Part shown: piece by piece, positions 40,408 through 54,634 of the stretch | How the letters are laid out: each line of letters begins with the position of its first letter | Numbering within the stretch: the first letter of the stretch is position 1 | Origin: Lachnospiraceae bacterium | GTDB lineage: Bacteria > Bacillota > Clostridia > Lachnospirales > Lachnospiraceae | Assembly: GCA_024692955.1 (NCBI GenBank) | Contig: JAILLW010000019.1 | Location: 27,807 to 91,806 of the forward strand | Direction: 5' to 3' | DNA: 64,000 nucleotides | Notes under the pieces: model-generated | The model's database searches: none | Told to the model about the DNA's origin: nothing | Seen by the model: the letters and a program-made list of their open reading frames with translations, nothing else | Translations under genes and position numbers: made by a program

Positions 40408-42006
40408 ATGAAACGACGCCTGACAGCCTGTATGATAGCAGCGATGATCCTTATGGGAGGATGCGCCGGAATGCCGCAGCCCTCCGTTGAAGCGCCGCCT
40501 CCGGATACGGAGCCCGATACACAGACGGCATTTGTCAGTATGGAGAGCGAGCCGGTCCTTTCCTATGAAGTACCCAAGAGTTCCCCGCATATTCTGGTCG
40601 ATGAACTGGGATATGAGCCGGGCCAGGAAAAAAAGGCGTACTTCTTCGGAGGCGAACTGCCTGAGCGGTTTTTTATCACGGAGCTCTCCACGGGAAAGAA
40701 TGTCTATGAAGGAAAGCTGGAAAGCGTCCGCTACAGTGATCTTTATCAGTGCAATATCGCCGTCGGGGAGTTTCATGATCTGACGAAAGAAGGCACCTAC
40801 CGCATATCGGCGGATCTTCTCGGCAATTCCTGTGATTTTGCCATCGGGACGGACCTTTACAGGGAACTTTTCCGGGAGGCCTGCAGAACTTATTACTATA
40901 ACCGTTGCGGAATGACGCTGACGTCGGAACTTGCCGGGGCGAATGCCCACAATGCCTGCCATACGGGGAAAGCGGTACTTAGAAGGGATATGACCGCGGA
41001 ACTTGATGTGACGGGAGGATGGCATCAGGACGGAAGCGGATCGAAGGATTCTGCCGCGGCCGCGAAGAGCCTTATAAATATTCTCCTTTCCTACGAGGTT
41101 TTTCCCGGAGCCTTTACGGATGATACGGGGATTCCCGAGAGCGGAAACGGGATACCGGATATCCTCGATGAGGCAAGATACGAGACGGAGTGGCTCCTTA
41201 AGATGCAGGATCCTTCCACGGGGGGAGTGTATTCCGCTGTGACGGTGGCCGAAAATCCCGACCGGAAAAGTACCGTAAGCTATGTGGAGGACCCCGGGGA
41301 AGACGCTTCCTATGCCTTCGCCGCGGCACTTTCGAAATTCAGCTTTTTCTATCAGGACTTTGACAGGGAGTTCGCGACTTTATGCCTTAAGGCGGCGGAC
41401 CGAGCCTGGAAATACGGGGTATTGAACGCCGGGAGCGCATCTTTCGAAAACGCTCCGGCCTCCGAATGGAAGTTTCCGGCGGCAGCCGAGATCTACCGGG
41501 CGTCGGCATCGAAGGAATGCGAGAGTTTCCTCAACGGATATCTGGCAGAGGATCCCTTTAAGAGCGAACCGCCCGACGGACTGCCGTTTTACGGATGTGT
41601 AACCTATCTGAACACGAAGCAGAAAGTCAATACGAAGTACTGCGGCGAACTGATGAGATCCATGATGCTCCGGGCAGAGAAGATCTCCGAGGGCTCAAGG
41701 AACGCCCCTTTCGGTGTGCCGGCCACCCCGGAACAGAACAACAACGCGGAGCTTCTCAACAATATGATGACCATGACCCTCGTGGATCATATCATCACGA
41801 ATCATGAATATGACACGATCATCGAAGATTATCTGCACTATTTTCTCGGCAGAAATCCGATGTCCGTAGTCTATGTGGACCATGTCGGGACCTTCAGCTA
41901 TATGGATCTTAATGAGAGCCTGGGGCTGATGAAGCAGTTTGATTCCGACGCGAAACTGATCTTTATGCTTAGCAGGATCCTGAGTAAGGACGGCTTTGCC
42001 GGGTAA
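40408..42006 (+). CDS. GH9-like lipoprotein with N-terminal Ig-like domain, catalytic motif degenerate
   Basis: Lipobox MILMGGCAG; HILVDELGYEPGQEKKAYF; IPESGNGIPDILDEARYETEWLLKMQDPSTGGVY; FLGRNPMSVVYVDHVG. Confidence 0.85.
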   Translation: MKRRLTACMIAAMILMGGCAGMPQPSVEAPPPDTEPDTQTAFVSMESEPVLSYEVPKSSPHILVDELGYEPGQEKKAYFFGGELPERFFITELSTGKNVYEGKLESVRYSDLYQCNIAVGEFHDLTKEGTYRISADLLGNSCDFAIGTDLYRELFREACRTYYYNRCGMTLTSELAGANAHNACHTGKAVLRRDMTAELDVTGGWHQDGSGSKDSAAAAKSLINILLSYEVFPGAFTDDTGIPESGNGIPDILDEARYETEWLLKMQDPSTGGVYSAVTVAENPDRKSTVSYVEDPGEDASYAFAAALSKFSFFYQDFDREFATLCLKAADRAWKYGVLNAGSASFENAPASEWKFPAAAEIYRASASKECESFLNGYLAEDPFKSEPPDGLPFYGCVTYLNTKQKVNTKYCGELMRSMMLRAEKISEGSRNAPFGVPATPEQNNNAELLNNMMTMTLVDHIITNHEYDTIIEDYLHYFLGRNPMSVVYVDHVGTFSYMDLNESLGLMKQFDSDAKLIFMLSRILSKDGFAG

Positions 42007-42012
42007 GGAATT

Positions 42013-42771
42013 ATGGTAAGGACGATTATTCTGGCGATCGCGATCATCTTACTTGCGCTGATCACGACTCCCTATTATCTGATCATCTGTTTTGTCGGGC
42101 TCTTCAGTATGAAGGCCAGAGACCGAATGACCTTCGGGATCATGCGGCCTGCCTTCCGCTTCCTTGCTTTTCTATCCGGAGTGAAGGTTCATGTGACCGG
42201 ACTTGAAAATGTGCCGAAGGACGTCCCTGTCCAGTATATCGGAAACCACAGAAGCTTTTATGACATTATTGTCAGTTATTATCTCTATCCCGGAAAGACG
42301 GCCATGATCTCAAAGAAGGAATGGGCGAAGATCCCCTTTCTTTCCTGGTGGATGAAGCTCCTTCACAATCTCTTCCTCGACCGCGATGATATCAAGCAGG
42401 GCCTGAAAACGATCCTTTCCGCCATCGACCTCGTGAAAGAGGGATATTCGATCTGCATTTTTCCGGAGGGGACGAGGAATAAAACGGAGGAGGTCATGCT
42501 CCCCTTCCATGAAGGGAGCTTTAAGATCGCGGACAAGACGGGATGTCCGATCATTCCGGTCACCATGTACAATATGAGCGCTATCTTCGAGGATCATATT
42601 CCGAAGGTGAAAGCAGCGGATGTTTATGTGGACTTCGGAAGTCCGATCAATCCGGGGGAACTGGATAAGGAAGAGCGGAAGCACATCGGAGCCCATACGA
42701 GGAAGATCATGATTGAAACCTATGAAAGGCTTCGGGAAACAGCAGAAAAATCCGCGGCCGGAAAGAAATAA
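42013..42771 (+). CDS. plsC: 1-acyl-sn-glycerol-3-phosphate acyltransferase
   Basis: NHRSFYD (HX4D), FPEGTRNKTEEVMLPFHEGSFKIADKTGCPIIPV. Confidence 0.93.
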   Translation: MVRTIILAIAIILLALITTPYYLIICFVGLFSMKARDRMTFGIMRPAFRFLAFLSGVKVHVTGLENVPKDVPVQYIGNHRSFYDIIVSYYLYPGKTAMISKKEWAKIPFLSWWMKLLHNLFLDRDDIKQGLKTILSAIDLVKEGYSICIFPEGTRNKTEEVMLPFHEGSFKIADKTGCPIIPVTMYNMSAIFEDHIPKVKAADVYVDFGSPINPGELDKEERKHIGAHTRKIMIETYERLRETAEKSAAGKK

Positions 42772-42806: not shown

Positions 42807-43787
42807 ATGACGGAGGAAACAAGGAGAAGAGTTCGGATGGATAAGATCGCGGTACTGATACCCTGCTTCAATGAGGAAAAAACGATCGAGAAGGTGATAC
42901 GGGACAGCCAAAAAGCGCTGCCGGACGCGGTCATCTATGTATATGACAACAATTCCACGGACCGGACGGCCGAAATCGCGGAAAAGGCCGGGGCCGTGGT
43001 GCGCCATGAGTATGTGCAGGGAAAGGGCAATGTGATCCGGCGCATGTTCCGGGAGATCGATGCCCATTGCTATATCATGGTGGACGGGGACGACACCTAT
43101 CCGATGGAATATGCCGGAAAGATGGCGGATCTGGTTCTTAACCACAATGCGGACATGGTGGTGGGAGACCGGCTCTCCTCTACATATTTCACGGAGAACA
43201 AGCGGCCCTTCCACAATTTCGGAAATTCTCTGGTACGGGCAGCGATCAACCGCCTCTTTGACTGCGGGATCAAGGATATCATGACGGGATTCCGGGCTTT
43301 CGGGTACGGCTTCGTAAAGACCTTTCCCGTAATGAGCCGGGGCTTTGAGATCGAGACGGAAATGACGATCTTTGCGGTTTACAACCATATGCAGATCGAT
43401 AATGTGGTGGTGGAGTACCGGGACCGGCCGGAGGGCTCGACCTCGAAGCTGAATACCTATTCGGACGGGTTCAAAGTTTTAAGGACTATCGTAAGGCTTT
43501 ATCGTGATTATAAACCCATGGCGTTTTTCAGTATTCTGGCTCTGCTTCTTGCGGCCTTTTCCGTCGCCTTCCTGATCCCCGTGCTCGTGGATTACTGGGA
43601 GACGGGCCTCGTGGCGAGATTTCCTACGCTGATCGTCTGCGGTTTCGTGTTGATCTCCGCGCTGCAGTCCTTTTTCGCGGGGCTCATTCTTTCGCATATC
43701 GTGAATCAGAACCGTCGGGACTTTGAATACCGCTTTACCAGAATGAACCTGAAGGAAAGAATGGACAGTGAAGACGAAGCAGAATAG
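42807..43787 (+). CDS. GT2-family glycosyltransferase, DPM/GtrB/YkoT-like, with C-terminal TM helices
   Basis: VLIPCFNEEKTIEKVI; DNNSTDRTAEIAEKAGA; DGDDTYP; alternative ATG at 42837. Confidence 0.92.
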   Translation: MTEETRRRVRMDKIAVLIPCFNEEKTIEKVIRDSQKALPDAVIYVYDNNSTDRTAEIAEKAGAVVRHEYVQGKGNVIRRMFREIDAHCYIMVDGDDTYPMEYAGKMADLVLNHNADMVVGDRLSSTYFTENKRPFHNFGNSLVRAAINRLFDCGIKDIMTGFRAFGYGFVKTFPVMSRGFEIETEMTIFAVYNHMQIDNVVVEYRDRPEGSTSKLNTYSDGFKVLRTIVRLYRDYKPMAFFSILALLLAAFSVAFLIPVLVDYWETGLVARFPTLIVCGFVLISALQSFFAGLILSHIVNQNRRDFEYRFTRMNLKERMDSEDEAE

Positions 43788-46700
43788 ATGGTATCTGATC
43801 GTCGTATCGGCGATCTTTATCCTGATGGCGCTGCTGTTCCTTGTGAAGGGAAAAAACAGTGTCGTATCGGTAAGTGACAATCTGGATTCCGTGATCCCGC
43901 GGTTTCGCCTTATGAAAAGCGAAGAACTCTTTTTCACGCAGGATGAGTATGCGGGCTTTCAGGGCGGCACGGAGCGGGATCTTCTTCCTTCCGAGGCAAA
44001 GCTCTATACGCTGCTTTATGCGGCGTTTCCGGCGATCTTCGCCTACTTTTTCGGGAAGCTCCTTTCAATCCTTCTTTCCACGGCGGGAGCGTTCCTTTTC
44101 GTCAGGGAAAAGTACGGAAAAGGCGGTCGCTTTGATGCCTTCGGGATCCTCTTCGGCTTCGGCTTCGGACTCCTTCCCGTTCCGGCGGAGAGCGCGTTCT
44201 GGTTCGCCTCCCTTCCCCTGCTTTGCTTTTTGCTTCTGAAGATCCGGAAGAAACCGCATTTTGTATGGTTCCTTTTGCTCTTTTTCTACCCGGTACTGAG
44301 CGATCTTCTGCATTTCGGATTCTTTATCCTTGCCGGGGTACTTATATACTTTATCGCTGTATGGATCCGTGAAAAGAAGTTTCCCTTAAGGATCCTTCTT
44401 TCCTTTTTCCTTATCGTCGCCGGCTATGCGCTTTCGGAATACCGGCTGATGCGCCAGCTCTTTTTTGAAGATAATGAATATCTTTGGAGAATGGCTTCCG
44501 CGGATCATGCGGGAGGACGGATCTTCCGCTTTCTTTCGGAGCATCTCCCCGCGGCCTTTGACATAAGAGCCGGAGTGCTCCGGCGCTATCCGCTTCTGCT
44601 TATTGCCGCTGCGGTCTTGCTCCTTGCGGGATTTTTCCTTGTGCGCTCCTATAAGGACCTCTACGATCCGGAAACTGGAGTTCCCCGGCCGGACCGTCAG
44701 AAAAAGGGAAATCTGCTTCGCGGGGTCGTGAACGGCTGCCTTTTATTCTATATGGCGTTCAATCTCTTTTTGAATTTTCCGGAAAATGATTTTCTGCATA
44801 CCCTCTTCCCGGCTACCGCGGGTAAGGAACGGACGACCTGGCGCGCCTATTATTCGGAGGGGATCTTTGAGAAGATCCGGGAAGATCTTGACTATGAGGA
44901 GGAATGGACCGTCGCTTACGGGATCGATCCCGGGGTGCTTAACTACAACGGGCTGGTGACTCTTGACGGATATTTCGACAGATATTCGATCAATTACAGG
45001 GATTATTTCCGAAGGGTCATAGCCCCTGCCATCGAGGGGCAGGAGTTCGAGGCGGAGATCGACCGCTATGGCGCGGAACTGAGGATCCCTGCGCCCGGGG
45101 ATCCGGAAACGGAGAAGACGGAACTTAAGATCGACCTTAATGCGCTGAAATATCTTGGCGGACGCTACCTTATCTCCGCTTATGAGATCGGAAACGCAAA
45201 GGAGATCGGGTTGGATGAAGCCGGTGTCTACACGGAGGAAGGGTCTCCCTGCAGGATCCGTGTCTACAAAATGCATTCGCGCTATCCGGAAAAGACGATC
45301 TCCGATATTCCCTTTTCGGAGCGTTCCGAGGATGATTACGATACGGAAAGGATGCATGAACTCGAAGCCGAGATCGGGAAAATGTCGAAAGAGGCAAAGG
45401 ATTATGCGGAAAAGAACGGGATCGATTTTAAAAAGGACGAAGAGTTTATCCTGATGAAGGATGTTCTTGACATGGCCGGGATGGAGGAACTCTATGACAG
45501 CCTGGAGCAGGAGATGATGAAGTTAAGGTCCTGCTACTCGATCCTGAATATCCGTTACAACAGGGATGTGAAAAACGAGGAACTGGCCAAAAAGGAACAG
45601 GAGCTTCATGAAACAGCCGTTGACGAGGGGGATCTTTACGCCCGGACCCTCAGGGACATATGTACGTCGCCGTATTATATGATGATCCGCCGGAAGCTTT
45701 CTTACGGAGCCGCGGAATCCCTTGCGGAATATGAGGATATGACGGAAGAGGAGAAGGAACGGTCCGCGAAGATCAACAGCCTTGAGCAGGAATATGACAA
45801 GGCCGCGCTGGAGGATCAGCCCTTTGAATATAAGGGGGAAAGCTGGACTTACGATCTTCTTTCCGAGCGGGCGGAGGAGCTTGACCAGGATACCTATATC
45901 GAGATCTATATCGGGATCGGAAAGGAACGGGCGAAGGTCCTCGGCGAAATCTATGTGCAGCTCCTTAAGCTCTACCACGAGAACGCTCTGGAAGAGGATT
46001 ATGACAGCTATGCGGATTACGCGTATGAAAAGGCGTACAGCCGCGATTATGATGTAAAAGAAGCGAAGGAAATGCTGAAGGATCTTCGGAAGAAGGGCTC
46101 CGGCTATATCACCAGGATCGGCGAGATCGGGGACGCGACGGAGTCGGATTTCGGGGTAATCACGCCGGACGATACCGAGACCTGGAACCTGCTCCTTCCC
46201 TATATGGAGGATATCGATCCGGAGCTTGGAATCTCGCTTAGACACCTTATCGACTGCGGGCTGTATGATATGAACTACAGCGAAACGAAGGTGGCGAATA
46301 CGGGCTATACCACCCCGCTGAATTATTACGGAGATGCCTTCATCTTTGATGAGCCGATGCAGACGTCGGATGACCTTTTCACCTACGTTCACGAATTCGG
46401 ACATTACAATAATGACTACCATTCGGATGAGAGTCTGCTTATGAGCTTCAACAACCTGGATGTGGCCGAGATCCATTCCCAGGGACTGGAGATGCTCTTT
46501 ACGAAGTATTATCCCGAAATCTACGGCGATGAGATGGGAAAGGCTCTTGAGGTAAGGGAGGTTTCCTCCATGGTGACGAAGCTGCCGGAGATCGCGATCG
46601 TAGCGGAATTCGAGATCTACGCTCATGAACATCCCGAAAGCACAGTTGAGGAGCTCAGCCGGAAATTCTACGATCTGATGAAGGATTACGGATATTATTA

Positions 46701-46992
46701 TCCGCCCGGAGTCGATGCGATCTATACCTGGGTGGAAATCCCGCATATCTTCAATACGCCGAACTATTACATCGCCTATCTGACCTCGGCGCTTACAAGT
46801 GTTGAAATCTACACGCTTTCGCATGAGGACCGCGAAAAAGCGATCGACAAGTATATGGATCTGACGTCCTTCCCGTCCGCCATCCCCTATTCCGGCGCCG
46901 TGGAAAGCGTCGGACTCGGCGACATCTTTGACAAGGGAACCGCCCGGGAGATCCTTAAAAAGACCTACCGGATCCTGCAGTACGGCGACTGA
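43768..46992 (+). CDS. Fusion: DUF6044/YkoS-like polytopic membrane protein plus M3-family oligoendopeptidase
   Basis: Single 1074-aa ORF; N-terminal TM-rich half (GGTERDLLPSEAKLYTLLYAAFPAIFAYFFGKLL, GVLNYNGLVTLDGYFDRYSINYRDYFRRVI); C-terminal HEFGH (46390-46404), AEIHSQGLEML, WVEIPHIFNTPNYYIAYLTSAL. Confidence 0.85.
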   Translation: MKTKQNRWYLIVVSAIFILMALLFLVKGKNSVVSVSDNLDSVIPRFRLMKSEELFFTQDEYAGFQGGTERDLLPSEAKLYTLLYAAFPAIFAYFFGKLLSILLSTAGAFLFVREKYGKGGRFDAFGILFGFGFGLLPVPAESAFWFASLPLLCFLLLKIRKKPHFVWFLLLFFYPVLSDLLHFGFFILAGVLIYFIAVWIREKKFPLRILLSFFLIVAGYALSEYRLMRQLFFEDNEYLWRMASADHAGGRIFRFLSEHLPAAFDIRAGVLRRYPLLLIAAAVLLLAGFFLVRSYKDLYDPETGVPRPDRQKKGNLLRGVVNGCLLFYMAFNLFLNFPENDFLHTLFPATAGKERTTWRAYYSEGIFEKIREDLDYEEEWTVAYGIDPGVLNYNGLVTLDGYFDRYSINYRDYFRRVIAPAIEGQEFEAEIDRYGAELRIPAPGDPETEKTELKIDLNALKYLGGRYLISAYEIGNAKEIGLDEAGVYTEEGSPCRIRVYKMHSRYPEKTISDIPFSERSEDDYDTERMHELEAEIGKMSKEAKDYAEKNGIDFKKDEEFILMKDVLDMAGMEELYDSLEQEMMKLRSCYSILNIRYNRDVKNEELAKKEQELHETAVDEGDLYARTLRDICTSPYYMMIRRKLSYGAAESLAEYEDMTEEEKERSAKINSLEQEYDKAALEDQPFEYKGESWTYDLLSERAEELDQDTYIEIYIGIGKERAKVLGEIYVQLLKLYHENALEEDYDSYADYAYEKAYSRDYDVKEAKEMLKDLRKKGSGYITRIGEIGDATESDFGVITPDDTETWNLLLPYMEDIDPELGISLRHLIDCGLYDMNYSETKVANTGYTTPLNYYGDAFIFDEPMQTSDDLFTYVHEFGHYNNDYHSDESLLMSFNNLDVAEIHSQGLEMLFTKYYPEIYGDEMGKALEVREVSSMVTKLPEIAIVAEFEIYAHEHPESTVEELSRKFYDLMKDYGYYYPPGVDAIYTWVEIPHIFNTPNYYIAYLTSALTSVEIYTLSHEDREKAIDKYMDLTSFPSAIPYSGAVESVGLGDIFDKGTAREILKKTYRILQYGD

Positions 46993-49105: not shown

Positions 49106-52100
49106 ATGAACAGAAAGTTTGTCACGAGAATACTCGCAGGAGTATTTTCAGCAATCATGGTTCTGACATCTCTGCCCGCAGGAGCGATCGCTTCCTACGC
49201 GGACGAGATCGAAGAAGAGGCTTCATCGGTCGAAGAGGCTATTGAGATCGATGAAGACAGTTCAGTAGCGCTTAAGGCGGTCGATGAAACTGTGGACGAA
49301 ATCGATACTTCTGAAGAAGAAGTGATCGAGGATGTTTCGGATGAAAGTCTGAATGCCGGTTTAACGATCGAAGCAGCTACAGGAAGTTTTGGAGAAGCAT
49401 TCGGCAATATGACGGCTGAAGCGATCCAAAAAGATATTGTTGTAGGCGATGATGCCATCTCGGGTACCTTGAAGCAGGTTACTGGATGGGATGAGTTTGG
49501 AGCAAATCTCAGTTCCGGCCATTATATCGCGCTTCATATTGATGACAGTAATGCCATCAGTATTATGGCAGGTATTGGAGAAACGGCTGAAGAGAATTGG
49601 CGATTGAAGGATATCACTGATGATCCTGACAGGGTGGTTATCCTCAGAGTCAAGGATAAAGATATTCAGTCTATAAAAGTTGTTGTAAAATACAGCGAAA
49701 AAGTTCAGGTAGAAAGAGTGTTTGCTCTTACGGATCTGGAGTTGGAAGGGTTCGCAGCTACCGCTACATTTGACGAGAACGAGCAGGATCTGTTAGGGAA
49801 GAGTCCTTCCGACCTGCAATGCGACATGGTGATCGATTCCACATCGATCAGCGGGTCGTTGAATTATGTATATGATTATACCGGATTCAGCAGCATTCTT
49901 AATGAACAGCATGGTAATTATTTGGCACTTGATGTGGATATTCCTTATGGCCAGAAACTGGAATATGGAACCAAAGCTGATGCCCTGTATACAACCAGCA
50001 AAACTGCCGCAGAGACTGGAGATCTGTTAGACAGAGAACTGATCATTATTGTCAAGGATACTACCAAGCCGCTGATCCTGAAGGTTACTTATGATGACGG
50101 CTCTGTTGAGACGCGTAAGTATGATATTTCAGGTCTTGTTCTTACAGAGGGTTCAGATCTGATCGAAGTCACAACACCTGAAGAAAAGAGTTTTGGCGAA
50201 GCATTCGGGGATTTGAAACCTTCTAATCTTCAGAGCAATATCGTGATCACGGAACCTGAGGAAGCAGGTGGAGCTGGAACCATCACCGGTACCTTGAAGC
50301 AGATTCACGGGTTTACGGGATTCAGTTCGCCGCTCAGTTCAGGTCATTATCTCTCCGTAAAGGCTGATGCACCGGGAGCAAAAAGCATCAAGGTATCGAC
50401 CGATTCGGATGATGCAGTGGTAGCAGAGCTTATAAGTGATCCCGACAAGACGGCAATCATCAGGATTAAGGATAAGGACACGCAGAAACTGCTGGTTAAG
50501 GTTACATATGTTGATGGGACAGAGGTAACGAGGAAATATGATCTTACCGGTCTCGAGCTGGAAGGGTTCGCAGCTACCGCTACATTTGGCGAGAACGAGC
50601 AGGATCTGTTAGGGAAGAGTCCTTCAGACCTGCAAAGCGGCATGGTGATCGATTCCACATCGATCAGTGGATCGTTGAACTATGTACATGGCTATACCGG
50701 ATTCAGCAGTATTCTCGATGAACAGTATGGTAATTATTTGGCACTTAATGTGGATATTCCTTATGGCCAGAAACTGGAATATGGAACAAATTCCGCTAGC
50801 CTGTATACAACCAGCAGTACTGCTGCAGAACTTGAAAACCATCTGTTAGACAGAGAACTGATCATTATTGTCAAGAATACTGAAAACCCGCTGATCCTGA
50901 AGGTTACTTATGAGGACGGCTCTGTTGAGACGCGTAAGTATGATATTTCAGGTCTTGATCTTGCACAGGACACTTCAGCGTACGATGTTACTCTTTCAGG
51001 TAAAGAGTACGGTGCTAATCTTGGGAAACTGATTAAAGCCGGAACAACCGGTACGATTACGGTTGAAGCTGTTGTTACTGACAGAGCGACACAAAAGGCT
51101 GCATCAGGAAGAACCATAACCTGGGCATCCAGTGATGAGACGATTGCTACGGTTGTAGGTACTACAGCTAAAACTAATGCAGATGGTATCGCTACGGCCA
51201 CGGTTACAGTAAAAGATGTAGACAGAGCTTGTATCGCGGTCATTAGCGCTACTGTAGCAGATGGAGAGAGCGTAGGGACGACCAGATTCGAGATTTACAA
51301 GAAAGCAACTGATCCTAATTTGGTGATCGATATGGCTCTTCCCGAAGAGTATGAAGCAGCACTGGAGCCTACGATCATTCTTCCGGCAGGTACCAATTAC
51401 AGAGTTAAGTGGGAAAAGACAAGTGATAATGATGTCGCAGATGTTGATGAAGATTTTGGTATAGTTTGGGCAAAACAGCGCGGATCTGAGACATTTGCAC
51501 AGGTTGTATATGAGAGTGACGGAAAGACAGTTGCTGTAAAGACTGATGATAATGCTTACACAGTAAATGTTATTACCGCACTTTCGAGAGTAAGTATTAT
51601 TTCCCAAAAGGATGTATTTGCTAACAACTATCCGAATTGTGAAGCGCTTTCCCTTCAATTTGAACCTGAAGGCAATTGGGAATCAGTTTTTGATAATCCG
51701 ATAGTTTGGTCCAGCAGCAATACTGCAGTTGCAACAGTAGATGAATATGGAGCTGTAACCGGTATTTCGAAAGGTGCTACTACTATAAAAGCTGTAGTAT
51801 CCGTAGATGGGAAGCAGTATACAGCATCTATTGCGTTGAAAGTAAGATCTGCAGTCACCAAACTTACGGTAGGCTATGCCGATTTCAGAGCTTCAAGCGA
51901 GGATATTGAAATGCAGAGATTCCCGATTACTGAAATTGGCAGGGATGTAAAGTTCTGGTCAGACGCTGAAGGATCTGATGATGCAGATAAAAGGGTTTCC
52001 TGGAGCAGTTCCAATCCTTTTGTAGCCAAAATAACGGAAGACGGTTATCTGACTGCCTTAAAGAAAGGAACGGCATATATAGTTGCTTCAACACCTGATG

Positions 52101-54634
52101 GAAAATCAGCAGGTTTTGAGGTTGAGGTTATCGATTGCTCAGGTATTGTCGTATCGGCACAGCCGATGACTGTTGTCGTAGCTGAAGGTGCTGATGCCAA
52201 TGCAGTTGTAAACCTTCTGTATAACGATGAGAACCTGAGTGCAGATACTTACTTATCAGATTATCAGCAGTTATTTGTTTCTTCTTCCGATGAGACGATT
52301 GCTACTGCAGCATTTAATAGTGCGGGAAATATGACAATCCGTGGGCTTAAGAGCGGTGAAGCGACTTTGACCGTAAGCTACAAAGTTAATAATGTAGAAT
52401 ATGGTAATACACAGATTAAAGTCAAAGTTGGCGGAGAGTCAGCTCCTGTTACAGATCTTAAGGCTACTGTCACAGAGGCAACACTGAATCCGGGTGATTC
52501 GTATACATTTGCTTATACAACCGTACCGGAGTCGTTTACGGATACTGTATTAAGCTGGAGTTCTGATACGCCTGCTGTAGCTGCTGTAGATACCGTTACA
52601 GGAAAGATTGATGCTTTTACAGCCGGAACCGCAACAATTACTCTTACTGCAAAGAAAGGGAATGCTGTTCTTAAGGAACTTGCATTCAGTGTAACGGTTA
52701 AAGAGCTTCCGTATGCTAAAACGGCATCCATTTCGCCGGAAAATGTAACTCTGCTGGCTCCTTATTCGAATCATCCCGGAGAAAGCGTGACTCTTAAGGC
52801 TTCGCTTTATCCGTATCCTTGCAAGACGCTGGATCACTATGTCTGGGTATCGTCTAATACTGATGTAGTAGGGATTAACGAATTTGGTTTGGAAGCAGAA
52901 ATCTATGCTAAGAAACCCGGAACAGCAACTATTACATTTACTAACATTGATGGTAGTTCGGCTAATGCAACTGACTCTATCACAGTTAATGTAGTTCAGA
53001 CGGTAGCTGATGAGGATTATTGGACAGGAAGATTCAATGAGGATGGTCCGTGGATCGGATTTATTGATGAGTATGTTTATACCGGATCTGCAATTAAGCC
53101 TACTCCCAATGTTTATTATGGCAAGGTGCTTTTGACAGCAGGCAGGGATTATACTTACAGCTATTTGAATAATGTTAATGCGGCAATTCACAAGAATAAA
53201 CCTACTGTAGTTGTGACACTTAAGGGCAATTTTGCCGGCAAGCTTAGCCAGGAATTTGTGATCAGTCCTGCAGGACTTTGGGATGATGGCATTGTGGTTA
53301 ATAATGTTTCTGCTGTTGCCAAAATCAACAAGAGGACCAAGGTGTATGTAGAACAGTTCCTGACACCTACGATCACATTCAATGGTAAGACCCTTAAGGC
53401 AGGTACGGATTTCGAAGCATTCTATTATGATGATTATGAAGGGGCATATGCTGCACCCAATGATCTTCAGGGATCGGACGGACATGGATATTCGATAGAG
53501 ATCAAGGGTATTGGAAACTTTAAGGACGAGACATATGCCGAAGAGTTCCTGACTGACAGCAGTGGTTCCGTGAAGGCAGCTAAGTTGAAAGTAGAGTTGG
53601 CGTTTGCTGACGGAGTAAAGGGCCCGAAGAAGAATCAGGCATATTATCAGGGCGGCGATGAGATCATACCTGAAGTGACCGTTAAGAATGGAAGCGTTGC
53701 ATTGACGGAAGATCAGTATCAGGTTACGATCAGCAATAACAAGAATCTTGGCACCGCGACCGTAACGGTTACCGGAATGGCTCCGTACTACGGGCAGAAG
53801 AAGACCACCTTCAAGATTGTTCCGATGACGGTTGATTTGAGCAAGGCGGGTGCAGACCTTGAGATTCTTGTAAACGGTGAGACGAGTGCCGAGATTCCTT
53901 ACGCGAAGGGTGGAGCCAAGCCTGAAAGCGTAGAAGTCAGCTATAAGGATGTACCTTTGACTTCTGGTGTTGATTATACCTACAGCGTGAAGGTAGACAA
54001 CAAGAAGAGCATTGGAACTGTTACGATCAAGGGTAAAGGCAGCTTCTTTAAGAAGAGTACCAAGACAACTTATAAGATTGTAACGCAGAGCATCGAGAAC
54101 ATGAATTTTGTTGTAGATGACTTTGTGGCCAACGCAAAGACCAAGGCCAATGCTTATAAGAAGAACAAGATTACCGTGATCGATCTGGATGGTAAAGCAC
54201 TTAAGGCTAAGACCGATTACACCGTTACATTTGAACCCGCATCTGGGCTTCCCGCTGTAGGAGATGAAGTAACGGCAATCATTACCGGTAAGGGCAAATA
54301 CGAAGGTACAGCGTATGAAACCTTCCGAATTGTAGAAGCATCTCAGTCCCTCAAGAAGGCAAAATATTCCTTCAAGGTAAATGATGAAGAGATTGCTGCT
54401 TCCAAGTACTATGTGAAGTATAAAGGCGTACCTGTTGTACTCGACAAAGAAGACCTTGTAATTAAGGTTAACCGTAAGGTAGGTCGCACCAATCACTGGG
54501 TGGTTCTTGATGACGATGATTATGAGATCGTATCTTATGCGAAGAACAACAAGGTCGGGATTTCCACAATTACAATTAGGGGCACCGGAGAATATGCCGG
54601 ACTGCTTACCCTTAAGGTTAAGATTAAGAAGTAA
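49106..54634 (+). CDS. Large secreted repeat protein (BIG2 Ig-like domains and C-terminal tandem repeats)
   Basis: Signal peptide MNRKFVTRILAGVFSAIMVLTSLPAGAIASYA; four related N-terminal modules, about six BIG2 (WSSSNTAVATVDEYGAVTGISKGATTI), about six xxxLxxGxDYTxSxxN/GxGxYxGxxxxxFxI repeats. Confidence 0.9.
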   Translation: MNRKFVTRILAGVFSAIMVLTSLPAGAIASYADEIEEEASSVEEAIEIDEDSSVALKAVDETVDEIDTSEEEVIEDVSDESLNAGLTIEAATGSFGEAFGNMTAEAIQKDIVVGDDAISGTLKQVTGWDEFGANLSSGHYIALHIDDSNAISIMAGIGETAEENWRLKDITDDPDRVVILRVKDKDIQSIKVVVKYSEKVQVERVFALTDLELEGFAATATFDENEQDLLGKSPSDLQCDMVIDSTSISGSLNYVYDYTGFSSILNEQHGNYLALDVDIPYGQKLEYGTKADALYTTSKTAAETGDLLDRELIIIVKDTTKPLILKVTYDDGSVETRKYDISGLVLTEGSDLIEVTTPEEKSFGEAFGDLKPSNLQSNIVITEPEEAGGAGTITGTLKQIHGFTGFSSPLSSGHYLSVKADAPGAKSIKVSTDSDDAVVAELISDPDKTAIIRIKDKDTQKLLVKVTYVDGTEVTRKYDLTGLELEGFAATATFGENEQDLLGKSPSDLQSGMVIDSTSISGSLNYVHGYTGFSSILDEQYGNYLALNVDIPYGQKLEYGTNSASLYTTSSTAAELENHLLDRELIIIVKNTENPLILKVTYEDGSVETRKYDISGLDLAQDTSAYDVTLSGKEYGANLGKLIKAGTTGTITVEAVVTDRATQKAASGRTITWASSDETIATVVGTTAKTNADGIATATVTVKDVDRACIAVISATVADGESVGTTRFEIYKKATDPNLVIDMALPEEYEAALEPTIILPAGTNYRVKWEKTSDNDVADVDEDFGIVWAKQRGSETFAQVVYESDGKTVAVKTDDNAYTVNVITALSRVSIISQKDVFANNYPNCEALSLQFEPEGNWESVFDNPIVWSSSNTAVATVDEYGAVTGISKGATTIKAVVSVDGKQYTASIALKVRSAVTKLTVGYADFRASSEDIEMQRFPITEIGRDVKFWSDAEGSDDADKRVSWSSSNPFVAKITEDGYLTALKKGTAYIVASTPDGKSAGFEVEVIDCSGIVVSAQPMTVVVAEGADANAVVNLLYNDENLSADTYLSDYQQLFVSSSDETIATAAFNSAGNMTIRGLKSGEATLTVSYKVNNVEYGNTQIKVKVGGESAPVTDLKATVTEATLNPGDSYTFAYTTVPESFTDTVLSWSSDTPAVAAVDTVTGKIDAFTAGTATITLTAKKGNAVLKELAFSVTVKELPYAKTASISPENVTLLAPYSNHPGESVTLKASLYPYPCKTLDHYVWVSSNTDVVGINEFGLEAEIYAKKPGTATITFTNIDGSSANATDSITVNVVQTVADEDYWTGRFNEDGPWIGFIDEYVYTGSAIKPTPNVYYGKVLLTAGRDYTYSYLNNVNAAIHKNKPTVVVTLKGNFAGKLSQEFVISPAGLWDDGIVVNNVSAVAKINKRTKVYVEQFLTPTITFNGKTLKAGTDFEAFYYDDYEGAYAAPNDLQGSDGHGYSIEIKGIGNFKDETYAEEFLTDSSGSVKAAKLKVELAFADGVKGPKKNQAYYQGGDEIIPEVTVKNGSVALTEDQYQVTISNNKNLGTATVTVTGMAPYYGQKKTTFKIVPMTVDLSKAGADLEILVNGETSAEIPYAKGGAKPESVEVSYKDVPLTSGVDYTYSVKVDNKKSIGTVTIKGKGSFFKKSTKTTYKIVTQSIENMNFVVDDFVANAKTKANAYKKNKITVIDLDGKALKAKTDYTVTFEPASGLPAVGDEVTAIITGKGKYEGTAYETFRIVEASQSLKKAKYSFKVNDEEIAASKYYVKYKGVPVVLDKEDLVIKVNRKVGRTNHWVVLDDDDYEIVSYAKNNKVGISTITIRGTGEYAGLLTLKVKIKK
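49744..50960 (+). repeat. Near-identical internal duplication, offset 816 bp (copy 1 from 49744, copy 2 from 50560)
   Basis: ggaagggttcgcagctaccgctacatttg[a/g]cgagaacgagcaggatctgttagggaagagtcctt[c]... present in both. Confidence 0.9.

Follow-up and report, generated by a model that had tools for sequence, protein, structure and literature searches.

A lipoprotein family with a GH9 fold and an eroded active site is encoded among cell-wall synthesis genes in Lachnospiraceae

Introduction

The closest described relatives of the protein family considered here, which we call GH9L, are GH9 endoglucanases with an N-terminal Ig domain, such as CelD of Clostridium thermocellum (1clc), AaCel9A (5e2j) and the metagenomic enzyme 3x17. 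The proton donor of CelD is Glu555, and its Asp198 and Asp201 matter for catalysis (PMC4019568). The same GH9 fold is found in the exo-glucosaminidases of Vibrionaceae, VC0615 (6gdt) and PBPRA0520 (5dgr), which have a base Asp and an acid Glu (PMC6096475). Our search of the open literature, outside which most subscription papers lie, returned no description of GH9L-like proteins or of relevant GH9 pseudoenzymes. The Klotho proteins are GH1-fold pseudoglycosidases, in which a non-catalytic glycosidase fold is reused as partner or co-receptor; unlike GH9L they belong to another GH family, are animal proteins and span the membrane. EnvC and the degenerate M23 proteins of the SpoIIQ type use a dead wall-hydrolase fold as envelope scaffold or regulator. 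Their fold is unrelated to that of GH9L, but a SpoIIQ-like protein is encoded in GH9L loci.

The window, a stretch of 64,000 nucleotides from a Lachnospiraceae genome, encodes one GH9L protein. A sequence-only reading had proposed that this GH9-fold lipoprotein has lost the catalytic DAGD motif, and had suggested either a carbohydrate-binding pseudoenzyme or a changed activity. Here we compare the protein with orthologs, canonical paralogs and solved structures, and its locus with those of related genomes.

Results

The window protein has 532 amino acids and is encoded on the forward strand (40408..42006, +), as seen from the ORF and its translation, the Pfam domains CelD_N and Glyco_hydro_9, and an AlphaFold2 model. 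It begins with a lipoprotein signal peptide that ends in the lipobox MGGC (40408..40464, +), recognised from the sequence and from the ortholog alignment, in which C19 of the lipobox is invariant. Between lipobox and Ig domain, at about residues 44-56, lies a linker motif, SMExEPxLSYEVP (40537..40575, +), which is conserved in the same alignment with Y53, V55 and P56 invariant; by a simple pattern, only 8 of the 26 shortened GH9L forms match it. A CelD_N Ig-like domain follows at residues 58-137 (40579..40818, +; PF02927, E 6.3e-14), and then the GH9 (alpha/alpha)6 domain at residues 151-495 (40858..41892, +), assigned by Pfam and Foldseek. The Glyco_hydro_9 match (PF00759) has an E of 1.3e-39 and 137 bits, against a cut-off of 27.7, and spans positions 1-379 of the 444 in the profile. 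The AlphaFold2 model, made from an alignment of 23 sequences, has a pTM of 0.76, and its best PDB matches in Foldseek are the GH9 endoglucanases 3x17 (E 6e-24), 6dht and 1clc, with TM about 0.7; GH9 endoglucanases are also the nearest solved relatives by sequence.

Both the profile and the (alpha/alpha)6 fold place the protein in family GH9, and the CelD_N domain and a Cys-Cys-His-His site are traits of the CelD-type subgroup. Domain order and fold are as in CelD, AaCel9A and 3x17, and the fold is also shared with the Vibrionaceae exo-glucosaminidases. The four residues of the site, C167, C184, H185 and H206 (40906..41025, +), are invariant or nearly so in the clade, and we take them to correspond to the structural zinc ligands C155, C173, H174 and H197 of CelD. 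These ligands, together with the landmarks IPESGNGIPDILDE and LGRNP, are common to Ig-containing GH9 endoglucanases and GH9L, and the claim that the landmarks flanking the altered motif are intact agrees with our alignments.

The segment DVTGGWHQDGSGSKDS lies in frame at residues 200-215 (nucleotides 41005-41052 of ORF 40408-42006, +). Within it, GGWHQDGSGSK (41014..41046, +) is the eroded DAGD motif: the alignments confirm that Q207-D208-G209-S210 stands in its place, Q207 and S210 occupying the positions of D198 and D201 of CelD. The ortholog comparison that the sequence-only reading had recommended shows that the replacement is conserved, GGWHQD being present in nearly all close orthologs (Q207 in 27/28 and D208 in 27/28). 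The HHR motif near the C-terminus is absent, as had been claimed. What that reading missed is that the proton-donor segment, TNEITIYWN, is deleted; in the alignment to canonical paralogs, the C-terminal region (41875..41970, +) is without the HxR loop and the acid-Glu strand, about 50 residues. The proton-donor motif (Y/F)S(T/C)NE(V/I)TIYWN, which holds E555 of CelD, is deleted in the GH9L family and kept in most canonical paralogs. A relocated acid in the LNES sequence of the window protein was considered and ruled out, as it is not conserved in orthologs.

The erosion extends beyond the acid and base residues. The columns of H276 and K277 (VYHK) and the Arg column 504 (HxR) are altered in all 28 close orthologs, and three Trp columns (357, 389 and 443), which are invariant in canonical paralogs and presumably line the GH9 cleft, are replaced. 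When the clade with GGWHxD was compared with 13 active-type Lachnospiraceae paralogs, one of them from the window genome, 50 of the 122 columns that are invariant or nearly so in those paralogs were kept and 50 were lost; the losses include both DAGD Asp, the His and Lys of VYHK, the three Trp, the HxR Arg, the acid Glu and the YWN stretch. A canonical GH9 protein with DAGD, HNR and TNEITIYWN is encoded elsewhere in the window genome. Since the base, the proton donor and the sugar-positioning residues are gone, GH9L almost certainly has no GH9 hydrolase function, as judged from its sequence. It differs in this from CelD-type enzymes, with their catalytic Asp pair, proton-donor Glu, HxR, VYHK and cleft Trp, and also from the Vibrionaceae exo-glucosaminidases, neither of whose catalytic acids it has.

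Orthologs at 42-54% identity were found in the window's genus and at 24 further loci, almost all of which carry the label Lachnospiraceae. Among 250 sampled Lachnospiraceae genomes, about 34 have GH9L, a lower bound counted from the fetched loci, and the same search yielded shorter relatives. In an order-wide sample, no GH9L was recognised outside Lachnospiraceae, all the matches checked there having an intact DAGD. Among 67 GH9L sequences, none has DAGD and none has HPHxR; GGW(H/N)x(D/N) is present in 41/67, and in the other 26 the whole segment is deleted. The sole match to the acid-motif pattern, in the protein of locus L087, is not where the motif belongs. A lipobox pattern was found in 63/67. 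One protein (L100, genome G210) is the lone GH9L with an Asp at the position of CelD D201 (GGWHTDKD), and has lost zinc Cys and the acid segment. At the syntenic locus in the window's genus, the deleted form occurs in one species (G002, L104) and GGWHQD is kept in the other five. Beside Ddl-MurF in another locus, a 957-aa ORF (L107:7307-10180) combines a multi-spanning membrane protein with an eroded GH9L that contains a lipobox-like LCGC internally, and is possibly a GH9L fusion.

For close pairs, dN/dS of GH9L is about 0.08-0.16, near the 0.04-0.11 of the Ddl and MurF encoded beside it. The conserved loss across orthologs, together with this purifying selection, characterises GH9L as a pseudoenzyme family. 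In the tree, the proteins with DAGD lie on one side of a branch with an SH-aLRT of 98, and segment loss is scattered; parsimony requires several independent losses, although the supported branches force only one.

GH9L, unlike the Ig-containing endoglucanases, is a lipoprotein encoded in an envelope gene cluster. In the window it is followed, 6 bp downstream, by a PlsC-type acyltransferase (42013..42771, +), then by a GT2 glycosyltransferase (42807..43787, +) and by a DUF6044 membrane protein fused to an M3-type peptidase domain with HEFGHY (43768..46992, +), all conserved neighbours. Such DUF6044-M3 forms of about 1,100 aa occur in at least eight loci, and the DUF6044 part of 577 aa stands alone in others. 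The usual order is aconitase, an UndP translocase-like protein, an EF-hand-like protein, SpoIID-like, SpoIIQ-like M23, amidohydrolase, GH9L, Ddl, MurF, PlsC, GT2 and DUF6044; the window's genus has GH9L, PlsC, (MurF, Ddl), GT2 and DUF6044. Across 24 loci (L016-L039), the gene after GH9L is Ddl, MurF or PlsC in every case, and the same holds for most further loci. In the window the MurF-Ddl pair is missing from its place beside GH9L. The window genome has no close MurF; its best match (C12, L166) is a divergent Mur ligase of 32% identity in a 537-aa frame. In loci of other genera (L092, L098 and L099), a divergent Mur ligase and an ATP-grasp protein replace MurF-Ddl downstream of GH9L. Just downstream of the window's cluster lies an 1842-aa protein with Big_2 Ig-like repeats (49106-54634). 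A role in fibre utilisation was considered and rejected: the conserved neighbours are wall-synthesis genes, and genes for CBMs, transporters or further GHs are missing from the conserved clusters.

Of the 24 loci L016-L039, 23 carry a SpoIIQ-like gene and 20 a SpoIID-like gene. The pair at L018:6708-7709 and L018:7705-8718 has homologs in 20-plus loci and is dead at the active site on comparison with 5i1t and 3uz0: the position of the catalytic Glu in the SpoIID-like neighbours is S, T, C, V or N in 29/29, and the M23 zinc motifs of the SpoIIQ-like neighbours are replaced in 38/38. Several of these genomes additionally encode a longer SpoIID-domain protein in which the Glu is retained. In C. 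difficile SpoIID the catalytic Glu (E101) is needed for activity and for sporulation (PMC6221140). A published survey has SpoIID and SpoIIQ missing from some Lachnospiraceae (PMC7924749), perhaps owing to the strong divergence of these neighbours.

The window genome (G000), which is 99.4% complete, and genome G001 lack SpoIVA; both retain GH9L with GGWHxD and have dropped the SpoIID/SpoIIQ genes. A hand tally of the fetched loci that could be judged gave SpoIID/SpoIIQ-like genes in 14/15 SpoIVA-positive and 1/17 SpoIVA-negative genomes (Fisher p 7e-7); as all these genomes were chosen by the presence of GH9L, all that the test demonstrates is the persistence of GH9L after loss of the sporulation genes. 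GH9L is thus kept in SpoIVA-negative genomes and not confined to the sporulation gene set, and so is not sporulation-specific.

Discussion

The gene context points to cell-envelope assembly and not to glucan metabolism, and synteny, the lipid anchor and selection together make a role in the envelope probable. This context is guilt by association, and in the window genome GH9L no longer has MurF and Ddl next to it. The reading that we favour as a whole, with better than even confidence, is that GH9L is a membrane-anchored GH9-fold pseudoenzyme that acts as a structural component or interaction partner during envelope (peptidoglycan) assembly. The CelD-type GH9 scaffold, braced by zinc, has been kept and selected; the lipid-anchored protein would sit on the outside of the cytoplasmic membrane and serve as a non-catalytic subunit for the assembly of peptidoglycan and associated glycopolymer. 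Its partners may be the products of the neighbouring genes Ddl, MurF and PlsC and, where present, the dead SpoIID- and SpoIIQ-like proteins. As GH9L outlives sporulation, the role would be vegetative. Two observations speak against this reading: the conserved Q207 and D208 of the 520-aa form may belong to a ligand site or to some residual activity of a different kind, and the L100 protein has an Asp at the position of CelD D201.

GH9L might instead be a lectin whose cleft, though no longer catalytic, has kept its binding of a beta-1,4 glycan, such as a wall polysaccharide or nascent peptidoglycan, which it presents to envelope enzymes. This would suit the peptidoglycan synthesis genes around it and the conservation of GGWHxD and the zinc site in the longer forms, and GH9 clefts can accept amino-sugars, as in the exo-glucosaminidase VC0615 (PMC6096475), whose structure 6gdt is among the fold matches. 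We nevertheless consider a lectin unlikely, with VYHK, the HxR Arg and the cleft Trp lost and the segment wholly deleted in 26 of the 67 members. The lost aromatics, as read from the alignments, argue against simple retained glucan binding; of the original proposal of a carbohydrate-binding pseudoenzyme, the pseudoenzyme part is strongly supported by the consistent loss of base pair, proton donor, HxR and VYHK His across a conserved family that purifying selection maintains, and the carbohydrate-binding part is not supported. Given the loss of the cleft aromatics and the existence of syntenic relatives that lack the segment, we lean to a protein scaffold over a glycan lectin, with a confidence that we would set at about even.

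The other original proposal, a changed activity, would have GH9L work as a hydrolase or transferase through D208 and another acid, or through zinc-dependent chemistry. The near-invariance of D208 in close orthologs, GGW(H/N)x(D/N) in 41/67 and the retained zinc ligands speak for it. The proposal can apply only to the form with GGWHxD, in which no acid/base pair is left for hydrolysis; moreover, no new conserved acidic partner appears at the site of the deleted acid segment, and members at the same locus lack the segment with D208. We regard it as improbable. A sporulation or engulfment factor lingering in non-spore formers, suggested by the frequent SpoIIQ- and SpoIID-like neighbours, is more doubtful again, and we reject it on the persistence of GH9L with GGWHxD in the SpoIVA-less G000 and G001 after SpoIID/SpoIIQ were dropped. 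A functionless, decaying remnant, with which progressive erosion and segment loss would agree, is hardly credible given intact frames, a lipobox pattern in nearly all members and a dN/dS that contradicts a pseudogene.

Beyond the pseudoenzyme reading, we tentatively suggest a dedicated Lachnospiraceae envelope module, possible though not the likelier case, which would be made up of three dead hydrolase-fold proteins (SpoIID-like, SpoIIQ-like M23 and GH9L) whose genes lie with Ddl and MurF. GH9L would be its vegetative core, a cellulase fold converted to a scaffold coupling precursor supply to wall assembly, whose old active site was repeatedly removed in different genera.

GH9L proteins score as GH9 and are probably tallied as cellulases in carbohydrate surveys of gut metagenomes, and such tallies would inflate the fibre-degrading capacity. 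If the envelope role is true, the family offers a clear natural series, in which active sites range from intact over point-mutated to wholly deleted and an enzyme fold has been reused in the cell-wall assembly of a major gut family.
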